Source: an uncultured Anaerobiospirillum sp.
GTDB lineage: Bacteria; Pseudomonadota; Gammaproteobacteria; Enterobacterales; Succinivibrionaceae
Reading direction: 5' to 3'
NCBI GenBank assembly: GCA_944392765.1
Contig: CALXXU010000027.1
Span: 1 to 34,155 of the forward strand
DNA: 34,155 nt
Positions 21,615 through 33,806 of this stretch are shown in pieces. Positions within the stretch are counted from its first letter, which is position 1. Every line of letters begins with the position of its first letter. Made by a program: the position numbers and the translations under genes. Under the pieces are notes generated by a model. It worked only from the letters and a program-made list of their open reading frames with translations. It was not told the origin of the DNA and did not search any database.

Positions 21615-23909
21615 CTAAAAGCTGGCAGCAGCTGTTAAATCAGGCACAGTGCCTGGGGCACTGGAGGTGCTGGGAGCGCCTGGGGCGCTGGCGTCGAGCG
21701 GCTCAATGGCCTCAATTTGCAGCTGGAGGCGCGGATTGTTGAAGTAGCGGTCGATGCCTAGGGTATAGACGATTTGCACCCGTGTGTCCGGGACAATCGA
21801 CTTCTCTTGGAGGCTGGCGCGAAACTTAATCGCCTCCACCAATTGGTTGGTGTCGGTGCGCAGTTTGACCTTTAAGTGGCGGTTTTTGAGGATATTGACC
21901 GCAACTACGGTGAAGATGCCATCAAAACAAGGCTCCTCAAAGTCCTTGCCCCAAGGACCAAACAACTCGATATCATGCGCAAAAGGTAAGCACAGATAAT
22001 CATGCGGTAAGGTGGCATCGCAGGTATAGGCGTCCTCGTCGACTACCTCCTGACGACAGGCGGCACAAGCGTCGTTGAACAAATTCTTAAAGCGCGCCAC
22101 GTCACGAGCATGAATGGTGGCACCGGCGGCCATCGCATGACCACCTCCAGCCACTAAGATATTAGGCTCGCGCTGCTTGATATAGGCAAAGACCTCCATC
22201 AGGTCGATCCCTGAAACCGAGCGGGCTGAGCCAACGATCAGATCGTCTGCTTCCTTCGTGCTCTGCTCCTGGCTCTGATCCTTACTCTCTTCTGTTGGGT
22301 GGTTCAGGGCACGCTCGACGTTAGGCATAATGCCTGAGGCAGCCGACATCACCTTGCCCCGAGGCGGGAAGTTAACACCTGAAGTATCAGTGCTCGGAAT
22401 GACCTGTTCCTTATTGTCGATGACGCTCATGAGGTCGACGCCCCCGTCAATGCCTGCCCCCAAGTCCGCGCCAAAGATCATGCACGGCCGGTGGTAGCGC
22501 TCGCGCATCCTAGTGGCCACCAGGCCCACTAAGCCCCTAAGGAAGGTCGGCTCGTAGAGCACAATGCCAGCGGTGAGGTCATTGCTCTCCTCCTCCGAGC
22601 CATCAAAGTCATTGTAGGCAGCCTCAATTGCATCCAGCTCACTTTCGCCCTCGCTGCCCTTGCCCAGCAGGTGCTGAATCATGGCCGCTTGGCTTGAGTC
22701 CTGGGGCGCTAAAGCGTGAGCGTGAAACTTAAGCTGCATCAAGTCGGCGCTCAAAGGTGGCAGCTCACTTGGTGCCTCGTCCTTAGGCTCAGGTAATTCT
22801 TGGCCTAAGACCGCGTTTTCATCTGGTACTGGAGCGCTAATCTTGCCATTGACCAAATCAATTAAGGCACGCTCTTCAGCGTAGAGACTTAGGGCCTTAG
22901 CCAGCATCACCTTTTCGTGATCCATACGGCGCTTGTTGCACATATCAAGTTGCTTAGCGTACAACAGCGCCAAATTGTCATCCTCGCTTAAGAGGTTGAG
23001 GATAGCCGGGTTCTGGGCAATCTTGATGCGGGTGGCCGCATTAAAGCGTGGACACAGATCAAAGGCGATGGTGCGAATCTTGACCTTGGCCGGATCGATC
23101 TTGAGGTAGCCCAATAAGGCCAACAGGCCCCGACAGGCCTTACCCTTGTGGATATGACGCAGGCCTTCCTTAACCAAACGGCGGTTATTGCTATCTAAGG
23201 TCATAACGTCACCGATGGTGCCTAAGGCCACCAAGTCGGTGAACTGAGTCATATTAGGTGACTTGCTCTTATCGGCGTAATAGCCCAGCTCCACCAGGCG
23301 GCTGCGCGTGGCGGCCATCACGTAAAAGAGCACGCCCACACCGCTTAAATGCTTAGATGGGAACTCATCGTCCTTGCGCTTAGGGTCAACTACCGCATCA
23401 GCAGGTGGCAGTTCAGCTCCCGGCTCATGGTGGTCGCTCACCACGACTGTAAGGCCCTTGTCCTTAGCGTAGGCCACAGCCGCATTAGCGCTAATGCCGT
23501 TATCGACCGTGACGATCAGCTTTACCCCATTTAAGATGGCATGGTCGACCACCTGCTCATTGAGGCCATAACCGTCGTCATAGCGTGAAGGCACGTAGTA
23601 GCTGATCTTCTCCTCAGGCAAACCAAAGGCGGTCAAGCAGCGCACACCTAAGGCGGTGCCGGACATACCATCGATATCGTAGTCACCGGAGATCATGATG
23701 TGCTCTTGGCGCATCACGGCATGGGCAATAATATCGGCGGCCTTAGCGCAATCGCACATATTGGTTGGAGGCAAGAGTCCCTTGATACTTATATCGAGAT
23801 CTGACACCCCCTTGACCCCGCGTACAGCCAAGATTTGGCGCATGATGGGATCAGGTATGAACTGACTTAAATAGCTGTCAGCTACATTAGGGCGATGTAC
23901 GATTTTCAA
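21615..23909 (-). CDS. recJ: Single-strand-specific 5'-3' exonuclease RecJ, enlarged
   Basis: DHH-family nuclease for recombination and mismatch repair. Metal-binding motifs are intact: GDYDIDG 75-81, VDNG 135-138, SDHHEPG 158-164, and the DHHA1 motif GGGHAMAAG 588-596. At 764 residues it is far longer than E. coli RecJ (577). Two acidic, low-complexity insertions (about 351-445 and 481-556) account for this; both lie outside the catalytic motifs. It uses a TTG start (23909) 5 nt after GGAGG, so initiation may be modest despite the strong ribosome binding site. It ends beside the ppgK terminator and is probably monocistronic. Confidence 0.95.
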   Translation of the reverse strand: MKIVHRPNVADSYLSQFIPDPIMRQILAVRGVKGVSDLDISIKGLLPPTNMCDCAKAADIIAHAVMRQEHIMISGDYDIDGMSGTALGVRCLTAFGLPEEKISYYVPSRYDDGYGLNEQVVDHAILNGVKLIVTVDNGISANAAVAYAKDKGLTVVVSDHHEPGAELPPADAVVDPKRKDDEFPSKHLSGVGVLFYVMAATRSRLVELGYYADKSKSPNMTQFTDLVALGTIGDVMTLDSNNRRLVKEGLRHIHKGKACRGLLALLGYLKIDPAKVKIRTIAFDLCPRFNAATRIKIAQNPAILNLLSEDDNLALLYAKQLDMCNKRRMDHEKVMLAKALSLYAEERALIDLVNGKISAPVPDENAVLGQELPEPKDEAPSELPPLSADLMQLKFHAHALAPQDSSQAAMIQHLLGKGSEGESELDAIEAAYNDFDGSEEESNDLTAGIVLYEPTFLRGLVGLVATRMRERYHRPCMIFGADLGAGIDGGVDLMSVIDNKEQVIPSTDTSGVNFPPRGKVMSAASGIMPNVERALNHPTEESKDQSQEQSTKEADDLIVGSARSVSGIDLMEVFAYIKQREPNILVAGGGHAMAAGATIHARDVARFKNLFNDACAACRQEVVDEDAYTCDATLPHDYLCLPFAHDIELFGPWGKDFEEPCFDGIFTVVAVNILKNRHLKVKLRTDTNQLVEAIKFRASLQEKSIVPDTRVQIVYTLGIDRYFNNPRLQLQIEAIEPLDASAPGAPSTSSAPGTVPDLTAAASF

Positions 23910-24318: not shown

Positions 24319-26556
24319 CTACAGCTCGTGGCTTAACTGCTTAAAGAACGCTAAGGCTCCCTCTAAGTCGAGGTGGGTGTGAGCGTAGGTTAAGTACTTA
24401 AGCTCTAGGGGCAAATAGCAGTTGAACTTTTCCCAATCGAGGTTTTTGACCCGCTTGAGCAGGCTGTTAACGTCATAATTGCCCTTCTTACCCTCAAGTA
24501 AGATCGAGGCCACAGCCGTCTTGAGGTTATCAAGGCTCGCGTACTCCAGCTCAATGTGGCAGCCAATGCGGTTAGCGGCAATCGAAGCCTTATTGAGCAT
24601 CAAGACTACGGTGTCCAGCACGCGATCACCCCGCCATGGGAAGAGCGCTAGGCCCATTGGACCTGTGATCATGACCTTGCGGTCGAGGTGATAGCGCTTA
24701 AAGGTCTCTTGGCCGCGCTTGAAGTTGACCATGGCCTGCTCATTGAGGCAAGGCGGGACGTCACCGGTGAGGTAGATGCGCTGCATCTCAGCACGCACCA
24801 CGTCATGCACCAAGCTGCTCACGCCCGAGAGCGGCAGTCCCATCGCCTTGTTTTGGCTTGGCTTGACGCCTATCACGCGCTTTTGCTCGTTGAAATAGAC
24901 CACACGCCACGCCTTACCGGCAAAGAGGAAGGTGTCGTCCTCCTTTAAGGAAGTAAGCAGCGGCAAACGGCCGATAGTGCGGCCATCGTGATCGACGCGA
25001 TAGTCGCGATTGTTGTTGAAAGCGGCAAAGAACTCATAGTTTGAGACCAAATGCTCGCCCTCCACGCCCAAGGTCAAGGTGCCATCTTGCATCTGGATGA
25101 TGAGATCGTTGGCGCCCAGGCCGCGCAGCAATTGCGCATACTGCTGCGGCGTGGTCAGGTTGAACGGACCGGTCTGACACAATAGCTGGTAGAGGTTCTT
25201 GGCACTGACCGAACCTTGAGCCGCAATCACCGAGAGCGTCTGCTGAATCAGGGTAGAAAAAGCGTACTCTTGCGCCAGCGGCGGCTCATACCAACGCTTG
25301 AGTAAGAGGTTGATGATGGCACAGCTCAGCACCGTATCCTCACACAAGAGCGACGACAAGCGGTTGCAGCTTGGGTCAAACTCAGGGATGAACAGACGCA
25401 GCACCGCCCGGCCATCGCGGCGACCCGAGCGGCCCAGACGCTGACGCAGCGACGCCACCGAGGTCGGCGGCGCAAATTGGGCAATCGACTGAACGTCGGA
25501 GATATCAATGCCCAGCTCCAAGGTTGAGGTGCAAATTGCAGTGGTCGGCAGGCGCCCATCGATTAAGCGCTGCTCTAAGGTCTCACGCAGCTCCTTAGAC
25601 AGCGAGCCATGGTGCGGGAAAAACTCCTCCGGCACTCGCGCCGCATGGCAAAGCTCACGCAGGTCGTTCGCGAGTTTCTCGGTATCCGAGCGCGAGTTGG
25701 TGAAGACCAGATTGTTCTTGCCGCGCAGCAAGCGATAGATATCTTTTGCCACCAAGGTAATAGCGGCATCATGCATCAACAAGGTACTAGCCCGAGGATC
25801 CTCGCCCTCAATCTTGCCGATGTCATAACCCAAGATCTTTACGGCAAGAGCTGCCGTAGTATGTTCATCCGAGGTGATGATTTGGCACTTGATGCGCGAG
25901 TTGTTAGCGCGCAAATACGAGGCCACCGAGCCGATATCGTTCGAGAAGGTCGCGGAAATAGCAATACGTACCGGTACTTTGCCGATCAAATTCTCGATGC
26001 GGTGTAACTGCGATTGCAGCTGATAGCCACGCTCCTCGCCCATTAAGGCGTGGAACTCATCGATTACGATATAAGCCAGATCTTTAAAAGCTTGCTTGAA
26101 GACGCTGGCCTGGTTAATAAGCAGCGACTCTAAGGACTCTGGGGTAATGAGCACAATACCCGAAGGGTCCTTTAATAATTTGGTCTTCTTGTTGACGGCG
26201 ACATCACCGTGCCATGGCGTGATTTTCACCCCTACCGGCTCAGCCATATCCATCAAGCGGCGCGCTTGATCGTTAATCAGAGCCTTAAGCGGGCTGATGT
26301 ACAAAACCGACACACCCGAGAGCTTCTCGCGATTTTGGCGCAGATAAGTGAGCACCGGCAGGAAGGCCGCTTCGGTCTTACCCGAGGCGGTCGAGGCCGA
26401 GATGATAACGTCGTCCTTGTGCTCTAAGATCGGGGCAATCGCCTTTTTCTGGATCGAATGCAGATCGCGCCAGCCTTGGCGTCCAATCCAGCGGCACACC
26501 AAAGGATCCAGCATTGAGATACAAGCTTGATTGGTTAAGCTCTCAGAGGACTCCAC
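24319..26556 (-). CDS. Lhr/YprA-like DEAD/DEAH-box superfamily II helicase
   Basis: Predicted ATP-dependent nucleic-acid helicase. GTG 26556 (AAGGAG 7 nt upstream) gives 745 residues; a longer frame to 26718 has no ribosome binding site and encodes a Cys/Arg-rich, unlikely start. Motifs: Q-like SIQKKAI, Walker A ASGKT at about 57-61, DEFH 166-169, SATF 201-204, STLELGID, QRLGRSGRRDG 372-382. A roughly 350-residue C-terminal part of unknown fold follows. It resembles helicases found beside BrxD-like ATPases in BREX-type and TerB-linked clusters, from memory of those families. It is the last gene of this stretch, 382 bp from the ATPase, with a hairpin and U-tract just before the start. Confidence 0.9.
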   Translation of the reverse strand: MESSESLTNQACISMLDPLVCRWIGRQGWRDLHSIQKKAIAPILEHKDDVIISASTASGKTEAAFLPVLTYLRQNREKLSGVSVLYISPLKALINDQARRLMDMAEPVGVKITPWHGDVAVNKKTKLLKDPSGIVLITPESLESLLINQASVFKQAFKDLAYIVIDEFHALMGEERGYQLQSQLHRIENLIGKVPVRIAISATFSNDIGSVASYLRANNSRIKCQIITSDEHTTAALAVKILGYDIGKIEGEDPRASTLLMHDAAITLVAKDIYRLLRGKNNLVFTNSRSDTEKLANDLRELCHAARVPEEFFPHHGSLSKELRETLEQRLIDGRLPTTAICTSTLELGIDISDVQSIAQFAPPTSVASLRQRLGRSGRRDGRAVLRLFIPEFDPSCNRLSSLLCEDTVLSCAIINLLLKRWYEPPLAQEYAFSTLIQQTLSVIAAQGSVSAKNLYQLLCQTGPFNLTTPQQYAQLLRGLGANDLIIQMQDGTLTLGVEGEHLVSNYEFFAAFNNNRDYRVDHDGRTIGRLPLLTSLKEDDTFLFAGKAWRVVYFNEQKRVIGVKPSQNKAMGLPLSGVSSLVHDVVRAEMQRIYLTGDVPPCLNEQAMVNFKRGQETFKRYHLDRKVMITGPMGLALFPWRGDRVLDTVVLMLNKASIAANRIGCHIELEYASLDNLKTAVASILLEGKKGNYDVNSLLKRVKNLDWEKFNCYLPLELKYLTYAHTHLDLEGALAFFKQLSHEL

Positions 26557-26594
26557 AACACTTCTCCTTTGGGTGCAGAACACAATAGCAAAAA

Positions 26595-26613
26595 GGACAC
26601 GACCTCCGTGTCC
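26595..26613 (-). terminator. Intrinsic terminator or attenuator before the helicase
   Basis: On the minus strand GGACACG and CGTGTCC form a 7-bp GC-rich stem with a 5-nt loop, followed at once by five T. The AAAAA flank is at 26590-26594. It ends about 35 nt before the helicase GTG. It would stop read-through from the ATPase gene unless opened, and there is little room for a separate promoter. Confidence 0.75.
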
Positions 26614-26775
26614 TCCATAAAACCGGCCGCACAAGGCCCCATTGCAGCAAGCAGGGCGTCGCCTCAAGCTGAGCCCACCACCGCTCAGGTGGGCTGGGCA
26701 CATCATTCTGGGCCTCATGCAACCCCAGCTGGATAGAGGCTCAGACTGCCCCCACTCTTTCCCTGCAGGCGGGAC

Positions 26776-26840
26776 GGCTCAAGCAGGGCTTTGCGGCTCA
26801 AGCAGGGCTTTGCGGCTCAAGCAGGGCTTTGCGGCTCAAG
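26776..26840. repeat. 19-bp tandem repeat between ATPase and helicase
   Basis: GGCTCAAGCAGGGCTTTGC is repeated at 26776, 26795 and 26814, with a partial fourth copy at 26833 and GCTCAAG-containing remnants to about 26900. All three full copies are identical. It lies in the 382-bp gap between ATPase and helicase. No coding sequence is supported there. Confidence 0.9.
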
Positions 26841-26938
26841 CAGAGTGTTACCTCAAGCGAGGCTTGACGGCTCAACCTGGGCCGATTACGCTCAAGTAGA
26901 GCCAGTTAGCCGACTTGGGCCCCAGCCCGTTAGAAGCG

Positions 26939-28255
26939 CTACAACTTGAAGGTGACTAAGTCGTCATCGTCGGATGGCGCAGGATCAGATGCGCCCGTCG
27001 TGACCAAGGATGGGTCGCTTTCGTTTTCGACGTGGACATTAGCAATGAGCGACTGCCACTTGATCTCTGGATTTTGCTCTAAGACCGAGAGCAGATCGAC
27101 AAAGGCCTTGATGGTGTTGCGCGGCGTTCTAAAGTAGGCCTCGCCGATGTTCTGCGAGCAATGGCGCAGGAAGGCAGTCAGGGCTTCGTCCGGCACTAAG
27201 TACTTGCTTGGGTCGCCGTTAGCAAAAACATTGCGGATATTAGCCAGGAGCACGTAAAGCTCCTCTGGCGATAAGTTCTCAAGCTTGAGCACTGGGCCGT
27301 GGTAATCGACCACATTGGCCACCTGAGCAAAGGTGTTCTCAGCTAAGCGCGAGCGTAGCGCCTCGTAGCTATAGAGGCCCTTACGGGTATCGCACAGGAA
27401 ATCGGTGGTGCCACCGAGCATAAAGCCGATATTCTCAGCGCTGCCTTGCAAGCAGTCATTTAAGATGCGCAGAATTTGCTCGTAATTAGCACTACGGGAG
27501 CGGGGCGATGGCAACTTGTAGAGGTTGACCATCTCATCTAAGTTGACCAAAAGGCCTTTGTAGCCTGCTTGGCAGACAAAGCGCGCTAAGAGCTTTAAGT
27601 GATCGTAGATCGAGCTATCGGAGACAATCGAGCGCACGCCTAAATCAGCGCGGGCCTCGGTCTTGGTAGCATATTCACCACGTAAATAGCGAATTGCAGC
27701 ATCCTTGAGCTCATCGCGTCCTTGCTCGTAGCCTTGGTAGTACTTGGCGATCACCTCAGCAAAGTCATAGCCGTCCACTAGCTCCGACAAGGACTTAAGC
27801 TTGGACTTGATGACAGCTTCCACCGCCAAGCCCTGCTCTTGGGCTACACCGATTTGGGTGGTGATGAACTTCTCGACCACCGGAATCATGGCATTGCCCT
27901 CAGGGTGGGCGCGCGTGGCCATATTGCGCATCAGCTCTTGATAAAGCGAACGTGCCTGACCGCCCGAGGCTTGCAGACGACGATCTGGGGCTAAATCAGC
28001 ATTGACTACCACCAGGCCCTTTTCCAAGGCTAAGTAGCGAATGAGCTGCAAGAAGAAGCTTTTACCAGCACCGAAGTCACCGACCACGACCTTGAAGGTA
28101 CTGCTGCCTTGGCATACGCGCTCTAACTCCTCAATCATCGCCTTGACTTCGTTGACGCGTCCCACTTGGATATGCTCCAAGCCCACACGCGGAGTCACAC
28201 CGGCCCGTAATGATTGAATGATAGCAGCACGCTCGCGCGGCCTGATCTTAGCCAT
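26939..28255 (-). CDS. BrxD-like (DUF2791) P-loop ATPase
   Basis: 438-residue ATPase of the DUF2791/BREX ATP-binding family. The start region RAGVTPRVGLEHIQVGR (17-33) is characteristic. Walker A is GDFGAGKS (59-66), and a family segment (NADLAPDRRLQASGGQARSL, 85-104) and Walker B LLVNLDE (235-241) follow. The tail is acidic. In known contexts such ATPases pair with an Lhr-like helicase, either in BREX type 2-like loci or next to TerB-domain proteins. Here a helicase lies downstream and a methyltransferase protein upstream. The function is likely nucleic-acid- or defence-related, but unproven. It has its own consensus -10 box at 28376-28381. Confidence 0.88.
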   Translation of the reverse strand: MAKIRPRERAAIIQSLRAGVTPRVGLEHIQVGRVNEVKAMIEELERVCQGSSTFKVVVGDFGAGKSFFLQLIRYLALEKGLVVVNADLAPDRRLQASGGQARSLYQELMRNMATRAHPEGNAMIPVVEKFITTQIGVAQEQGLAVEAVIKSKLKSLSELVDGYDFAEVIAKYYQGYEQGRDELKDAAIRYLRGEYATKTEARADLGVRSIVSDSSIYDHLKLLARFVCQAGYKGLLVNLDEMVNLYKLPSPRSRSANYEQILRILNDCLQGSAENIGFMLGGTTDFLCDTRKGLYSYEALRSRLAENTFAQVANVVDYHGPVLKLENLSPEELYVLLANIRNVFANGDPSKYLVPDEALTAFLRHCSQNIGEAYFRTPRNTIKAFVDLLSVLEQNPEIKWQSLIANVHVENESDPSLVTTGASDPAPSDDDDLVTFKL

Positions 28256-28350
28256 AGTCAGAACTCCTCAAGCTCAAGCTCCCACGATGCCCCAACCACT
28301 ACCAGCCACAACAAGTTTGTTGGCAGCTCCTAAGACACGGGCTATCGTCA

Positions 28351-28431
28351 CCCCGCCAATTTACGGGGGATCCCCATTATAACGCAAGATTTTGGCCCAT
28401 ATCGGGCATGAAAACGCTAGGTTTCACGCCC
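28351..28431 (-). promoter_or_regulatory. ATPase promoter, 5' hairpin and operator-like repeat
   Basis: The -10 TATAAT is at 28376-28381 (minus strand). An imperfect palindrome, GGGCATGAAA (28404-28413) and TTTCACGCCC (28422-28431), matching at 9 of 10 positions, lies at about -35 to -62, replacing any clear -35 box. A CCCCG/CGGGG stem (28351-28355 with 28364-28368) begins at the predicted transcript start near 28369. The leader is about 114 nt. The palindrome position suits an activator or repressor site; that is inference. Confidence 0.5.
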
Positions 28432-28512
28432 AAGGCCCAAAGCAGCGCACCGTCACTAAAGCCCCGCCCCCACAGTAGTACCGAACGCGGATGCAGGCAC
28501 GCTGGAATTTGG

Positions 28513-30870
28513 TTATGAGAGCTTGCGGAAGATAGTGCCCTTGTTAACCACGGTAAGGCGCTCCCCTGACGGCGCAAAGGTCGGCACATAACCAAAAAGT
28601 GCCGCTGTTAAGCTCTGCGGGCCTTGCTGCGCCGCACGCTCAAAGGCCTGAGCTAATCCCCCAGAGCTTGCTAAGAGCTGCACTAACTCTTGCCGGTCTT
28701 GAGCTGGGAACAGGCGCTGATAGTGGGAGCTGAGCTCACTGTCCTCAAGGGCATAATTGGTGTTGAACAGACACAGCAGGCCACTGGGCTTTAAAGCTTG
28801 ATCTAAGAGCTGTAAGGTTGCAGCAAAATCTACCCAGTCATACACCCCTTGAGCATTCTCAAGCCGCGCTGTATCAGGGTGCCGACACAACACAGTCATG
28901 GCACAGATCACGTCGCACTGCAGGTTCTTAGCACCTACCAGCTCTTCTAGCTGTGCCGTTGTGATAAAACTGGCATTTTGGGCCTGAGGCACATAAGGTA
29001 GCTGTTCTAAATTGTGCCAGAGCTGCCGGGCTTGCGCTAAGGCATCTTCATTTAAGTCCACACCGAGATAGTGGTGCGCCCCCAGAGGCCCTAACAGCGC
29101 ACGCAGCTCCGCTAACTCTTGGCCTGTGGAGCAGCCAAAGCTCATAATGGTCAACTCTTGCTGCTTTTTGTGTGGCAGCATGGTCTTTAAAGCCTGCCAT
29201 TGCATCTGATAGCGACCAGTACCCGTAAAGTTCGCTCGCTGCGCCAATTGCAGGGCGCCGCGATGTTCTTGCTCAGTTAAACCCAGCTTGCGCCTTAGCG
29301 CCGTGAGTTGCTCTTGGGGATGGAGGTGCTGTGCTTTGTCCTGCAAAGCATGCTGCCACGCTGCGTTGAGCGCTTGCGGCCGTTCTAGTTGAGGTGATGC
29401 TTTTAGCGTAGCGAGCGCCTGAGTTATGGTCTCATGAGGGTGAGCGTTTAGCTCACTGAGCTTGAGGCACGGGAAGATAGTGCTGGTACCAAAGCTAACC
29501 GGACTTAACTCCTGATAACTGCCCACTTTGACCCCGCGATTGAGCACACCAGAGCGAGCTAAATCATCATAGGCTTGGTAGGCCTCTTGGTAGGCCTTGT
29601 CATCACGTTCATTCGGGCTTGCGTCCAAGTAATTATCCTGATTTACCTTAAAGGATTCATAGGTGGCAAAGTACTCCTTACTGATCGGCTGCTCTAAATC
29701 AAGATCAAGTGTTAAGCCCAGGGTCGCAGTACCGCAGCTTGCCGCCAAGAGCTGCTCGCAAGCGTTTTCTGTGATCAGAAGCTGCACCCGCTCAAGCAAA
29801 CTACGATAGTCCTCATAGCTTTGGCCGAGGAAACAGCCCGCCACGCCCGGCGCACTAATGCTACTTGGACGCATGCTAGGGTCAGCTTGATCTTGCAGCA
29901 TTGCCTGAGTCAGGGCATGACGCTTGAGCTGGGCCGAGAACTCTTCGCACCAATGCCGCGCTAAATTACCCGCTTGCATAGTCTGCTCAACGCACAGATA
30001 GGTCGCCTCGCTTAACAGCGGCGCATAGGAAAAAATGCCAGGCCCGAGCATCACCACAAAACGCGCCTTAGGCCAAACCGCATTTAGGGCCTTTAGTAGA
30101 TTTAAGGCCTCAGGGGAAAGTCCCAGCTGCGCATGCCGAGTAAAGAGAGTGGAGCTCACTGCAATCGTAACTACATCTGAGCGTCCATCTGAGTGGTCAA
30201 GTAAACCTTTCAGGCTCTCTAAAGCGCGTTTAGTCTTGGCTTGATGAAACCAGAACAAGGCATTAACGTCACTTGTGACCTGGTACGGCAGGTGAGCTAA
30301 CGCTTGAGTTCCTAAGGTGTGAACAAACTTAGCCTTAGTGCTTACAGTGTGCAAGAAAAGCTGCAAGCTGGGACTGAGCGCTGGGGTACTCGGGACAGTC
30401 AGGTTGAAGATAAAACTTGGAGGGCAGTTTGCGGCGCACAATAAGGAATTGAGACTTGCGGGAATGGTCGAGCTGGGCGTCAGTGGATGGTTTAAGCACA
30501 GGCAAATCGCATCAAAGTGGGTGCTGATGTAATCCACATCGATGGGAGTGTGTTCGCTCATCGTGTAAAAGCGCGCGGCGCCCCACAACTCGAGAATCTT
30601 GAGCTCATCTCGCGTCAGCTCTGGGACGTTAGGTTCACGAGCTTTTAACTGCGGTTTCATCTGGGTAGCGTAAAGCGCATCTGGATTGATCCGCACCAAG
30701 TGGCTTAGTACTACCCCTATAGCCATCGTACGACTAGCGTAAGGACTCAAGCGCCACCCACGCAGGGTGGTTAAATCTTCATTGAGGCTAAAGCCATGGC
30801 TGAGCCGATCGTCACTGACGTTGACCGGGGCAAAGTTATCGTCAGTAAGCACTAATACCGCATAGGACAT
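28513..30870 (-). CDS. Large protein with C-terminal class I methyltransferase domain
   Basis: 785 residues. The C-terminal 210 residues form a SAM-dependent methyltransferase: motif I in MSFGCSTGQELAEL (about 576-589), an acidic end of strand 2 in GVDLNED (603-609), then a motif-IV-like CDVICAMTVL and ALKPSGLLCLFN. There is no NPPY/DPPY motif, so a DNA N6-adenine methyltransferase is unlikely. Residues 1-550 match no family I know. A stretch near 230-290 alternates strand and helix, like the second half of a GT-B glycosyltransferase, but this is weak. ATG 30870 has AGGAGA about 10 nt upstream. The gene ends 257 bp before the ATPase on the same strand. It could be a sugar/polysaccharide or small-molecule methyltransferase rather than a partner. 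Confidence 0.7.
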   Translation of the reverse strand: MSYAVLVLTDDNFAPVNVSDDRLSHGFSLNEDLTTLRGWRLSPYASRTMAIGVVLSHLVRINPDALYATQMKPQLKAREPNVPELTRDELKILELWGAARFYTMSEHTPIDVDYISTHFDAICLCLNHPLTPSSTIPASLNSLLCAANCPPSFIFNLTVPSTPALSPSLQLFLHTVSTKAKFVHTLGTQALAHLPYQVTSDVNALFWFHQAKTKRALESLKGLLDHSDGRSDVVTIAVSSTLFTRHAQLGLSPEALNLLKALNAVWPKARFVVMLGPGIFSYAPLLSEATYLCVEQTMQAGNLARHWCEEFSAQLKRHALTQAMLQDQADPSMRPSSISAPGVAGCFLGQSYEDYRSLLERVQLLITENACEQLLAASCGTATLGLTLDLDLEQPISKEYFATYESFKVNQDNYLDASPNERDDKAYQEAYQAYDDLARSGVLNRGVKVGSYQELSPVSFGTSTIFPCLKLSELNAHPHETITQALATLKASPQLERPQALNAAWQHALQDKAQHLHPQEQLTALRRKLGLTEQEHRGALQLAQRANFTGTGRYQMQWQALKTMLPHKKQQELTIMSFGCSTGQELAELRALLGPLGAHHYLGVDLNEDALAQARQLWHNLEQLPYVPQAQNASFITTAQLEELVGAKNLQCDVICAMTVLCRHPDTARLENAQGVYDWVDFAATLQLLDQALKPSGLLCLFNTNYALEDSELSSHYQRLFPAQDRQELVQLLASSGGLAQAFERAAQQGPQSLTAALFGYVPTFAPSGERLTVVNKGTIFRKLS

Positions 30871-31164: not shown

Positions 31165-32058
31165 TTACTTGCGGGTGGCAACGACCAGCATCCAGCCGTC
31201 CTTGACCTTGGTGTAGTCGATCTCAAAGTCCTGTTGATAGGCCGCGATGACCTCGTCGCCTTGCGCCTCTAACAGACCCGATAAGGCGAGCTTACCGCCC
31301 TTTTGGCACAGTGCAGCGATATTAGGCTCCAGCTCCACTAATGGACCAGCTAAGATATTAGCGACCACAATCTCGCATGGGTGCAAATCTTGGCTTGGGC
31401 CATCAAAAAGCTTGATCTGATCTGCGACCTGATTGCGCTCAGCGTTATCCTTACTTGCGATAATGGCTTGCGGGTCAATGTCGACGCCATAGGCTTCCTT
31501 GGCGCCCAGCTTGAGCGCGGCAATGGCTAAGATACCCGAGCCGCAGCCATAGTCTAAGATTTCCTTGTCTTTAATGTCTTTGATGCTATCTAAGAAATTC
31601 AGGCATAAGAAGGTCGTTGGGTGCGTGCCCGTACCAAAGGCTAAGCCTGGATCTAACATCACCATGACTGCGTTTTCGTCCTCGATCTTGCTCCAGGATG
31701 GGCAAATCCACAGGCGCTCACCGCACTTAATCGGCTTGAAATTCTCCATCCAGACGCGCACCCAATCGCGATCCTCTAAATCGTGCGCCGCAATCGGGTA
31801 CTGGTCACCATAGACGTGCTGGAGATAGGACACAACCGGATCGGTATCCGCGCCTTGCTCAAATAGGCCTACCACCACTGTAGTTGGCCATACCCGCTCC
31901 TCACCTGGGCGGGGCTCTAAGATTGGGTCGTCCTTGGCGTCGACTAAGGTTACCGACAAGGCACCTAAGCCAAACATGATTTCGGACAATTCATCCGCTT
32001 TAGCGCCGTCACAAACTACGGACACCTCTTTCCATGCCTGCTGTTCGTTCTCACTCAT
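31165..32058 (-). CDS. prmA: Ribosomal protein L11 methyltransferase PrmA
   Basis: Trimethylates L11 at several amino groups. ATG 32058 (AAGGAG 6 nt upstream) gives 297 residues (293 in E. coli); the frame extends to 32145 but that part is not family-like. The small N-terminal substrate-recognition domain contains VTLVDAKDDPILEPRPGE. The catalytic domain has DPGLAFGTGTHPTT, motif I LDYGCGSGILAIAAL, VDIDPQA and the NIL active-site loop VVANILAGPL. There is no panF-like gene upstream. It lies downstream of a membrane protein gene on the same strand, 275 bp away. Confidence 0.97.
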   Translation of the reverse strand: MSENEQQAWKEVSVVCDGAKADELSEIMFGLGALSVTLVDAKDDPILEPRPGEERVWPTTVVVGLFEQGADTDPVVSYLQHVYGDQYPIAAHDLEDRDWVRVWMENFKPIKCGERLWICPSWSKIEDENAVMVMLDPGLAFGTGTHPTTFLCLNFLDSIKDIKDKEILDYGCGSGILAIAALKLGAKEAYGVDIDPQAIIASKDNAERNQVADQIKLFDGPSQDLHPCEIVVANILAGPLVELEPNIAALCQKGGKLALSGLLEAQGDEVIAAYQQDFEIDYTKVKDGWMLVVATRK

Positions 32059-32333
32059 TGCTAACTCCTTGTGCTGTAGCGGTTGGGCATCAGGGCCCGT
32101 AATCTTAACAATTTGCTGGGTTGCAGTGTGGGAGTAACACAGCACCTGCGTTCACTTGACCTAAACCACAGTCTGCACAGCCCTTCGATCATTTTGCGGC
32201 AGGAGCGCTTAAATTAGAGCATGCCCTTATGGGTAAATCGCATCAACCCAGTTGGTACAAGGCCTTTACCAAGCTGGAGCTGCCTCGGCTTCCCAGCGGG
32301 CGATGGGGCTGTTGGCACAGCGCACCTGCGCGG

Positions 32334-33806
32334 TTAAGCTGAGACTGATCTTGGTGGGACATAGCCCTTGGCTGCTTGCTTTTTGCTGGGATGCGGCATC
32401 GGCTCAATATGGAACGGCATGCTGACTTGAACCTCGTACTCAGCCTCACCTAATGGGTTCTCTAAGAATTTGGTCAAACGTAAATGCAGGAAATTGCTTT
32501 GCTCGCCCACATTGCATAGATAAAGCATCGCCGCGCGATCCACTACCACCTTTTCTTGGGTCAAGCCATTGAGCGCACCTAAGGATACGCTCTCATTGTT
32601 CACCACTTGAATGTAGAGCCAAGGGCCGTCCACTGCAATATCGATGATATTGCTCATACCGCCGAGCGCTCGGAGGAAAGCTAGCGCATTTAATTCGGGA
32701 GCACTGGTGGTACCGATGGAATAGCCAACATTCAATGAGCGCAGCTTGCGTTTGCGATCCCGAATCCGCTCGCGCTGAATGAACATAGCAAAGAACACCA
32801 GTCCTGCCGGGAAAATTAAGGCAAAGGCTTCCAGGCTTGCAATCTGACTGTTGACGTTATTGAGCGCCATCGTGGTCAGGGCGAGGTTGGTGTCGGGTAA
32901 ATAGAGGTTTTGCACCAAGGTAATAGCCGGAACCTCCAACAGATAGGACAGCGCAAAGCAGGACATTGCGGTGACGAGCAAGGTGCTAAAGGAACCGGGG
33001 AAAAAGATCAAAAGCATGAGCAGGGTCAGCGAGACACAAGCGCCAATTGAGCCGGTCATAATCGCAATAATGACCAATAAGGTCAAAAAGAGCCGTACAT
33101 GCTTCTTGGTGAAAAAGGAGCGCACAAAAAGCGTGGTCGGCAAAGCAATGAGATTGGTCACCAAGATCGCGTTCACAAAGGCCGTCACCATAGTGTTTTG
33201 ATAGCGCAGCGTGACCAGAGCTCCCACTAAATCCTGCGCCCCTAAGGTCTGCAAGAGCAGATAAATCGGCACATAAATGACCGAGAGCATACTGTTGCCA
33301 AAGCACTCTTCAAAGGTAAACAGGATAAAGGTGTTGATTTGGCGCAGGATCAGCCCCAGGCAGATAAAGGTGATGACTGGCAGTACCACCACAAAAAAGC
33401 AGGTCAATAAGATGCGCTTCGGCTTGGGCACAAAACTGTCTTCAAGGCCGTTTTGATACGGCAACAGGGCAAATAAAGTCGACACTGCCGTGATCACGCA
33501 AACGATCGGATTGATCAGAAAGTCGATGGGATTTCCCGGCAGGCACAATAAGGAAATCACATAGACTGCTGCGACCACACTGAGCTGCACAAAACGGTCG
33601 ACCGTTGGTACGACAAAGGCGACCATCAGAACAAAGAGTCCAGGGAAAAAGATGCGGCCTGTTAACAGAAGATAATTGCGCGTCCCTGGATCCAGCTGCG
33701 GCGCCACTTGGTTGCTTAAAGCCCAAGTGCTGATCGCTAGCAACATTAAGGGCAATAGCAGCAAGATGCTGCGATGCTGATAGCCGTAAGTGTGTATCCG
33801 TCGCAT
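32334..33806 (-). CDS. PTS EIIC-EIIB-like membrane protein without EIIB cysteine
   Basis: 490 residues: about ten hydrophobic segments (17-345), then a soluble region. Residues 373-445 resemble the glucose-family EIIB domain (LGGMSNIIDI... aligned with the E. coli PtsG FGGKENITNL). The phosphocysteine position holds Asp393, and the arginine in the CITRLR motif is replaced by Trp396. The membrane part carries a segment (LPTTLFVRSFFTKKHV) like the EIIC LPAA...A loop, but the TEPIEF motif is replaced by LEVPAI. I infer a PTS permease descendant that cannot take the usual phosphoryl group, perhaps a sensor or transporter. No EIIA or HPr gene is nearby. ATG 33806 has a weak ribosome binding site. 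Confidence 0.55.
   Translation of the reverse strand: MRRIHTYGYQHRSILLLLPLMLLAISTWALSNQVAPQLDPGTRNYLLLTGRIFFPGLFVLMVAFVVPTVDRFVQLSVVAAVYVISLLCLPGNPIDFLINPIVCVITAVSTLFALLPYQNGLEDSFVPKPKRILLTCFFVVVLPVITFICLGLILRQINTFILFTFEECFGNSMLSVIYVPIYLLLQTLGAQDLVGALVTLRYQNTMVTAFVNAILVTNLIALPTTLFVRSFFTKKHVRLFLTLLVIIAIMTGSIGACVSLTLLMLLIFFPGSFSTLLVTAMSCFALSYLLEVPAITLVQNLYLPDTNLALTTMALNNVNSQIASLEAFALIFPAGLVFFAMFIQRERIRDRKRKLRSLNVGYSIGTTSAPELNALAFLRALGGMSNIIDIAVDGPWLYIQVVNNESVSLGALNGLTQEKVVVDRAAMLYLCNVGEQSNFLHLRLTKFLENPLGEAEYEVQVSMPFHIEPMPHPSKKQAAKGYVPPRSVSA

Follow-up and report, generated by a model that had tools for sequence, protein, structure and literature searches.

The window, by which we mean the whole 34,155-nucleotide stretch of Anaerobiospirillum DNA that was analysed, contains three consecutive genes on its minus strand, as the initial annotation had described; the open reading frames (ORFs), a GTG start at 26556 and the Pfam domains all bear this out. 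Together with one housekeeping gene on each side, they are arranged as follows:

21615..23909, minus strand: recJ, a housekeeping landmark on the opposite side, no component (TIGR00644, E = 2.1e-119)
24319..26556, minus strand: sngC, SF2 helicase of the Shango type, SngC (PADLOC SngC, E = 1.9e-221)
26939..28255, minus strand: sngB, AAA+ ATPase of the BrxC/BrxD superfamily, Shango type, SngB (PF10923, E = 3.6e-148; PADLOC SngB, E = 2.1e-175)
28513..30870, minus strand: genus-specific protein with a C-terminal class I methyltransferase domain, a neighbour and probably no component (Methyltransf_23, E = 3.3e-07)
31165..32145, minus strand: prmA, a housekeeping landmark of the sngBC site, no component (TIGR00406, E = 3.8e-84)

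By a mechanical rule the helicase ORF spans 24319-26718; we placed its start at the GTG at 26556, which has AAGGAG ahead of it, giving a protein of 745 residues with DEAD and Helicase_C domains (Pfam). The ATPase ORF encodes 438 amino acids, and its earlier assignment to DUF2791 is confirmed by Pfam (PF10923), to which it is the single match in the whole genome. The third gene had been read correctly as a 785-residue protein with a methyltransferase at its C-terminus, for which the best Pfam match is PF13489 (E = 3.3e-07). The window proteins have intact Walker and helicase motifs. The closest named relative at the locus is another uncultured Anaerobiospirillum of the Succinivibrionaceae (L113), with 97% identity in SngB. 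The spacer between sngB and sngC is about 380 bases long in the window, where a 19-base repeat (TTGAGCCGCAAAGCCCTGC) occurs three times in succession within 26780-26840; in G010 and G027 it measures about 5-12 bases.

PADLOC was run on 15 window proteins (RecJ, PPGK, YjeF and small ORFs were left out), and beyond sngBC the only matches were to mad2, of methyltransferase type, by the 28513-30870 protein (4.7e-07) and by PrmA (1.8e-14). The remaining matched proteins are housekeeping ones (Obg, a polyprenyl synthetase, PurA, two Band-7 proteins and an HflX-type GTPase), and further housekeeping matches in the window comprise MiaA, MutL, an amidase, YjeF/NnrD, polyphosphate glucokinase, RecJ and PrmA; several of these gene names are our interpretation of the names of the matched families. 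No mobile-element genes were identified among the scanned window proteins, and promoters and terminators around the genes showed no excess over the shuffled expectation.

Identity of the ATPase-helicase pair

The ATPase matches the PADLOC model of SngB at 2.1e-175 vs. 1.1e-43 for BrxD, and the helicase matches SngC at 1.9e-221 vs. 1e-117 for BrxHI. The SngB alignment covers residues 2-437 of the 438 and positions 4-438 of the 439 in the profile, and the NCBIfam equivalog model of BrxD is missed, with 148.1 bits against a cut-off of 350. Judged by these profile scores, the two proteins are SngB and SngC of Shango, and no BREX variant. The initial annotation had proposed a possible variant of a BREX/TerB-type module, of which the BREX reading is rejected on the PADLOC and NCBIfam model scores, and had pointed to a trio of TerB protein, ATPase and helicase as a lead, which proved to be the right one: that trio is Shango, whose models match far better than those of BREX. 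It had also noted that PglZ and BrxL are missing, and in agreement with this neither they nor the BREX methylase had a PADLOC match among the 15 window proteins (for the helicase, among the best 25 of its 60 matches). When solved structures were searched by sequence, SngB had no relative at E up to 0.01, and the helicase found known helicases, including YprA (4.5e-24).

In the available text of PMC10250203, Shango is an anti-phage operon of a TerB protein, an ATPase and a helicase; its activity on plates was modest (10-100-fold), and its protection of Pseudomonas aeruginosa in liquid was stronger. Millman et al. 2022 is named in connection with Shango in the accessible part of PMC10952713. According to the available portion of a study of helicase phylogeny, SngC groups with BrxHI, DruE and DpdJ in a potentially distinct clade (PMC12278908). 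Shango appears to be undescribed in Succinivibrionaceae as far as the open-licence literature goes, where no paper contains both words, and none of the matches listed there deals with the mechanism of Shango. The available main text of a rumen survey that mentions Shango does not name Succinivibrio or Ruminobacter (PMC13356809).

Neighbourhood, distribution and descent of sngB and sngC

To compare gene neighbourhoods, we obtained 80 loci by SngB similarity; they represent the best 80 of 509 relatives and are a similarity-ranked, non-random sample. In other bacteria (L132-L191), 60 of 60 loci encode a protein of one sequence cluster immediately upstream of SngB; among the Succinivibrionaceae loci (L113-L131, L192) the count is 0 of 20. 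In the non-family loci this protein is usually 720-830 amino acids long, and we regard the cluster as SngA because each of three members checked in Pfam has TerB_N, TerB and TerB_C. SngA is absent from the sngBC operon at these 20 family loci, and in the window the gene upstream of sngB is that of the methyltransferase. The remainder of the arrangement is stable. Directly downstream of sngB lies sngC in all 37 family loci that were read (out of 48 carriers; in G028 the sngB ORF is hidden by an antisense ORF in the ORF caller, and its position was taken from coordinates obtained separately). In 32 of the 37, prmA precedes sngB on the same strand, at a distance of up to about 7.5 kb; the five exceptions are G001 and G007 (about 21-22 kb), G029 (contig start), and G032 and G042 (prmA unseen in the stretch). 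The recJ gene recurs in the neighbourhood across genera, with varying position and orientation. At prmA in six non-carrier loci, from genera g12 and g13, sngBC is absent (in G051 the prmA ORF is hidden in the caller). A conserved, apparently hydrophobic protein of 490 amino acids (32334-33806) adjoins prmA in most family loci read, and matched no model of Pfam, NCBIfam or PADLOC (E up to 0.001).

A few loci depart from this arrangement. In G055 the helicase is broken into ORFs of 127 and 614 amino acids (G055:C37; L081:9838-12056), and a second, very divergent SngB copy is found on another contig (G055:C43; L082:8584-9909), beside which no SngC-like ORF was detected, the flanks being partly masked. 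In G008 (C34; L094), sngC is inverted and adjoins the methyltransferase gene, and no sngB was found in the genome; this could be a rearrangement or an assembly error.

Defence systems are usually patchy and mobile. SngB was found in 48 of the 56 family genomes. In an order sample, split by genome labels into 33 family members and 361 others, it was found (E up to 1e-80) in 29 and 2 genomes, respectively, and a class sample of 368 genomes held six carriers besides the genome of the window. The sngB-sngC pair is thus a core gene pair in the Succinivibrionaceae, mostly located near prmA. In a tree of 97 SngB sequences, whose root was chosen arbitrarily, all 36 family sequences and the divergent second copy of G055 form one clade (support 0.996), this clade and nine non-family sequences form another (support 1.0), and family SngB groups among canonical SngB. 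A tree of PrmA and RecJ, rooted on E. coli, with g13 left out and several deep nodes poorly supported, places four g12 genomes, which are non-carriers, outside all carriers (support 0.964). Distances of SngB and SngC correlate with those of PrmA and RecJ (Mantel r = 0.883 for 24 taxa and 0.868 for 11 genus representatives), and neither value was reached in any of 2000 permutations. The simplest account is that SngBC was gained after the g12 split, the alternative being an early gain followed by loss.

The pair is also well conserved. In simple pairwise estimates between the window and G005, for which dS is high (in a second pair, G004/G003, dS was saturated for eight of nine genes), SngB is 97.7% identical with a dN/dS of 0.025 and SngC 92.2% identical (0.060), next to 91.2% (0.045) for PrmA and 79.6% (0.132) for RecJ. 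As estimated from these sequences, sngB-sngC is under strong purifying selection. Across the family, with one genome for each of nine genera, median identity is 64.5% for SngB, 52.2% for PrmA, 47.5% for SngC and 40.6% for RecJ. Walker A and a Walker B ending in LDE, MDE or IDE are present in 36 of 36 aligned family SngB; the SngC motifs DE(F/Y)H and SAT are present in 37 of 37 aligned sequences, and the first helicase motif is seen in all but one of them (36 of 37), the exception being a gapped row.

The likely third component and the possible role of the system

The SngA profile has a single match in the genome of the window, at the end of a 2,197-amino acid ORF on another contig (G000:C19:15358-21951; L073:7358-13951), with an E-value of 2.3e-8 over profile positions 397-510 of 528. 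A canonical SngA was sought elsewhere in this genome, and only this TerB_C protein turned up. The copy from the window's own genome matches Pfam TerB_C at E = 0.0062 (17.2 bits, under the cut-off of 26.3) and that from G027 at 5e-15; TerB_C was found in all 13 scanned members at E up to 0.01, and neither TerB_N nor TerB was detected by Pfam in these 13. The alignment of the large protein with SngA by hhalign (98.9% probability, E = 1.3e-17) is carried by the TerB_C end. Full-length homology to SngA was rejected, since the one significant match given by hhalign, first with 13 sequences and later with 33, was carried by the TerB_C end. One version of the 33-sequence alignment extends back over SngA columns 457-794 and may reach the TerB domain; other segments taken alone gave E = 0.26 for the preceding segment and 0.05 or worse for the rest. 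From these comparisons, only TerB_C appears securely common to the large protein and SngA.

The large protein is variable in other respects. Nine sequences from the window's genus have 1,738-2,197 amino acids, and the 24 from other genera have 1,021-1,199 (20 of these 33 lengths were measured between stops or up to a contig end). The nearly doubled length in the window's genus apparently comes, as judged by eye, from Ala/Gln-rich low-complexity insertions. In G055 the protein is in two ORFs (L110), and in G018 and G021 only part of it is seen. A search of solved structures by sequence found no relative at E up to 1. Of the 46 genomes having the large protein, 14 loci were read with flanks, and in 12 of these the gene lies within about 3 kb of xseA; two others, both from g11, adjoin tig-clpP-clpX, and L111 has both contexts. 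These four names were assigned by reading the sequences, and we take xseA to be an exonuclease VII subunit gene. Between the window's genome and G005, the large protein is 62.7% identical with a dN/dS of 0.222, and its family median identity is 17.3%. This fast evolution is by itself no sign of an arms race because the neighbouring XseA evolves equally fast (66.6%, 0.228).

The profile of the large protein finds it in 46 of the 56 family genomes. SngB and the large protein are both present in 45 genomes, SngB only in three (G037, G038 and G040), the large protein only in one (G008, which also has sngC and in which no sngB was found), and neither in seven (G048-G054, genera g12 and g13). The contig of G037 stops about 600 bases past xseA, and no xseA was found in G038 or G040. 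In five non-carriers the xseA locus could be read, and the large protein is absent beside it. The co-occurrence gives a Fisher p of 4e-6, which overstates it because the genomes come from one family, are not independent of each other and represent few independent events. In the order sample, the profile matched three genomes outside the family; two of them carry SngB, and there it is the TerB_C end that matches, immediately upstream of SngB; the third match is weak (7.5e-4) and lies in a different region. Taken together, the co-occurrence and the common domain suggest that the large unlinked TerB_C protein is the likely third component.

Alternatively, the third place might be filled by the methyltransferase protein, substituting for SngA as the initial annotation had allowed. 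Its gene lies on the same strand as sngB and directly adjoins it in 6 of the 10 genomes that have it, with one small ORF between the two in a seventh (G003). However, relatives (E up to 0.001) occur in only 10 of the 56 family genomes, all of which belong to the window's genus, and none was found in the 46 others, 39 of which keep SngB; this is the outcome that the initial annotation had named as refuting such a variant. The gene adjoins prmA in 10 of 10, and stays with prmA where a long insertion separates prmA and sngB in G001 and G007. Moreover, the protein (61.6% identical to that of G005, dN/dS 0.161) evolves far faster than SngB and SngC, and it is the TerB_C protein that co-occurs with the pair instead. 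On its distribution and its attachment to prmA, the methyltransferase was rejected as a third component; a three-gene variant of this kind is largely refuted already, and we consider it very improbable. The gene seems to be an incidental, genus-specific one at the prmA site. Six aligned members have a methyltransferase core in common, the N-terminal two thirds have no Pfam match at E up to 0.01, and solved structures searched by sequence gave weak methyltransferase matches only (best E 0.0056); that it acts on a protein or a small molecule is a plain guess. The insertions between the methyltransferase gene and sngB exceed 15 kb (G007:C27 and G001:C80; L084, L085, L098, L099) and have many genes in common, and the two genomes are closely related. 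Another possibility is that SngB and SngC work alone as a reduced system, to which the TerB_C protein would be unrelated, its domain being common by chance. The genes are indeed unlinked and TerB_C alone is securely common, but the co-occurrence is near-complete, all seven g12 and g13 genomes are without both, and in the order sample matches to the TerB_C end are found only in SngB carriers, and we consider such a reduced system unlikely. Of the initial reading as a reduced pair with a chance neighbour, the incidental neighbour stands and the reduction does not: since the pair is accompanied by a TerB_C protein encoded at another site of the genome, the family system is probably dispersed rather than reduced.

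We therefore favour, with good but not full confidence, the view that an ancestor of most members of the family acquired Shango once. SngB and SngC would then have become a fixed pair close to prmA in the core chromosome. Their third partner does not seem simply to have been lost; its place is probably filled by the large unlinked protein, in which only TerB_C is securely retained from SngA. In this model, TerB_C would dock the large protein onto the SngB ATPase, SngB would assemble on DNA and then load or control the SngC helicase/translocase, and the divergent body of the large protein might sense the substrate or decide the response. By analogy with Shango, we consider protection against foreign or damaged DNA the likeliest role, provided by standing equipment and not by a mobile island. 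Defence and chromosome maintenance are both compatible with the parts list, and a modest edge is given to a defence-like role because the only tested function found for such a set, in the available text of PMC10250203, is of that kind. It is also conceivable that the pair and the TerB_C protein have been exapted as a housekeeping machine for chromosome repair or replication, with defence abandoned. The family-wide presence, the site kept near prmA and often recJ, a purifying selection on SngB that exceeds that on PrmA (dN/dS 0.025 vs. 0.045) and the partner gene close to xseA in most loci read would fit this reading. However, in canonical Shango, too, SngB is the best-conserved subunit (median identity 78.7%, against 63.2% for SngC and 44.9% for SngA), which makes its conservation unremarkable, genera g12 and g13 live without SngB, and adjacency to repair genes is weak evidence; exaptation is thus a reading that we hold only tentatively. 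Its likelihood overlaps with that of the acquisition of Shango with a dispersed third subunit, because the parts list is common to both. With similar reserve, we entertain the idea of a core anti-phage motor pair with a new giant unlinked subunit that keeps only TerB_C, the role of which may now be chromosome maintenance, instead of or besides defence.

Shango itself was already known, and what we claim as new is its occurrence in a dispersed, vertically inherited form. This form offers a natural test of which parts of Shango cannot be dispensed with (the motors and TerB_C) and which are replaceable, and it makes testable whether TerB_C is a coupling domain. It also suggests that searches demanding SngA, SngB and SngC side by side would overlook the dispersed form, and that a gene neighbour at the level of a genus may mimic a system component.

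Relation to BREX and Shango

With BREX, the window pair has in common an ATPase of Pfam family PF10923 and a helicase that matches BrxHI (1e-117). It differs in that it matches the BREX models far more weakly than those of SngB and SngC, and in that neither PglZ nor BrxL has a model match among the same 15 proteins (same 25 of 60 for the helicase). As for Shango, SngB and SngC of the window are clear family members, a TerB_C protein co-occurs with SngB in Succinivibrionaceae, and the subunits rank by conservation as they do in canonical Shango. Unlike Shango elsewhere, in which SngA adjoined SngB at every locus compared (60 of 60), the Succinivibrionaceae have it at none (0 of 20). The partner in this family is unlinked, 1,021-2,197 amino acids long (33 sequences) and with TerB_C as the only domain shown, and the set is present in most members of one family, whereas Shango is otherwise scattered.
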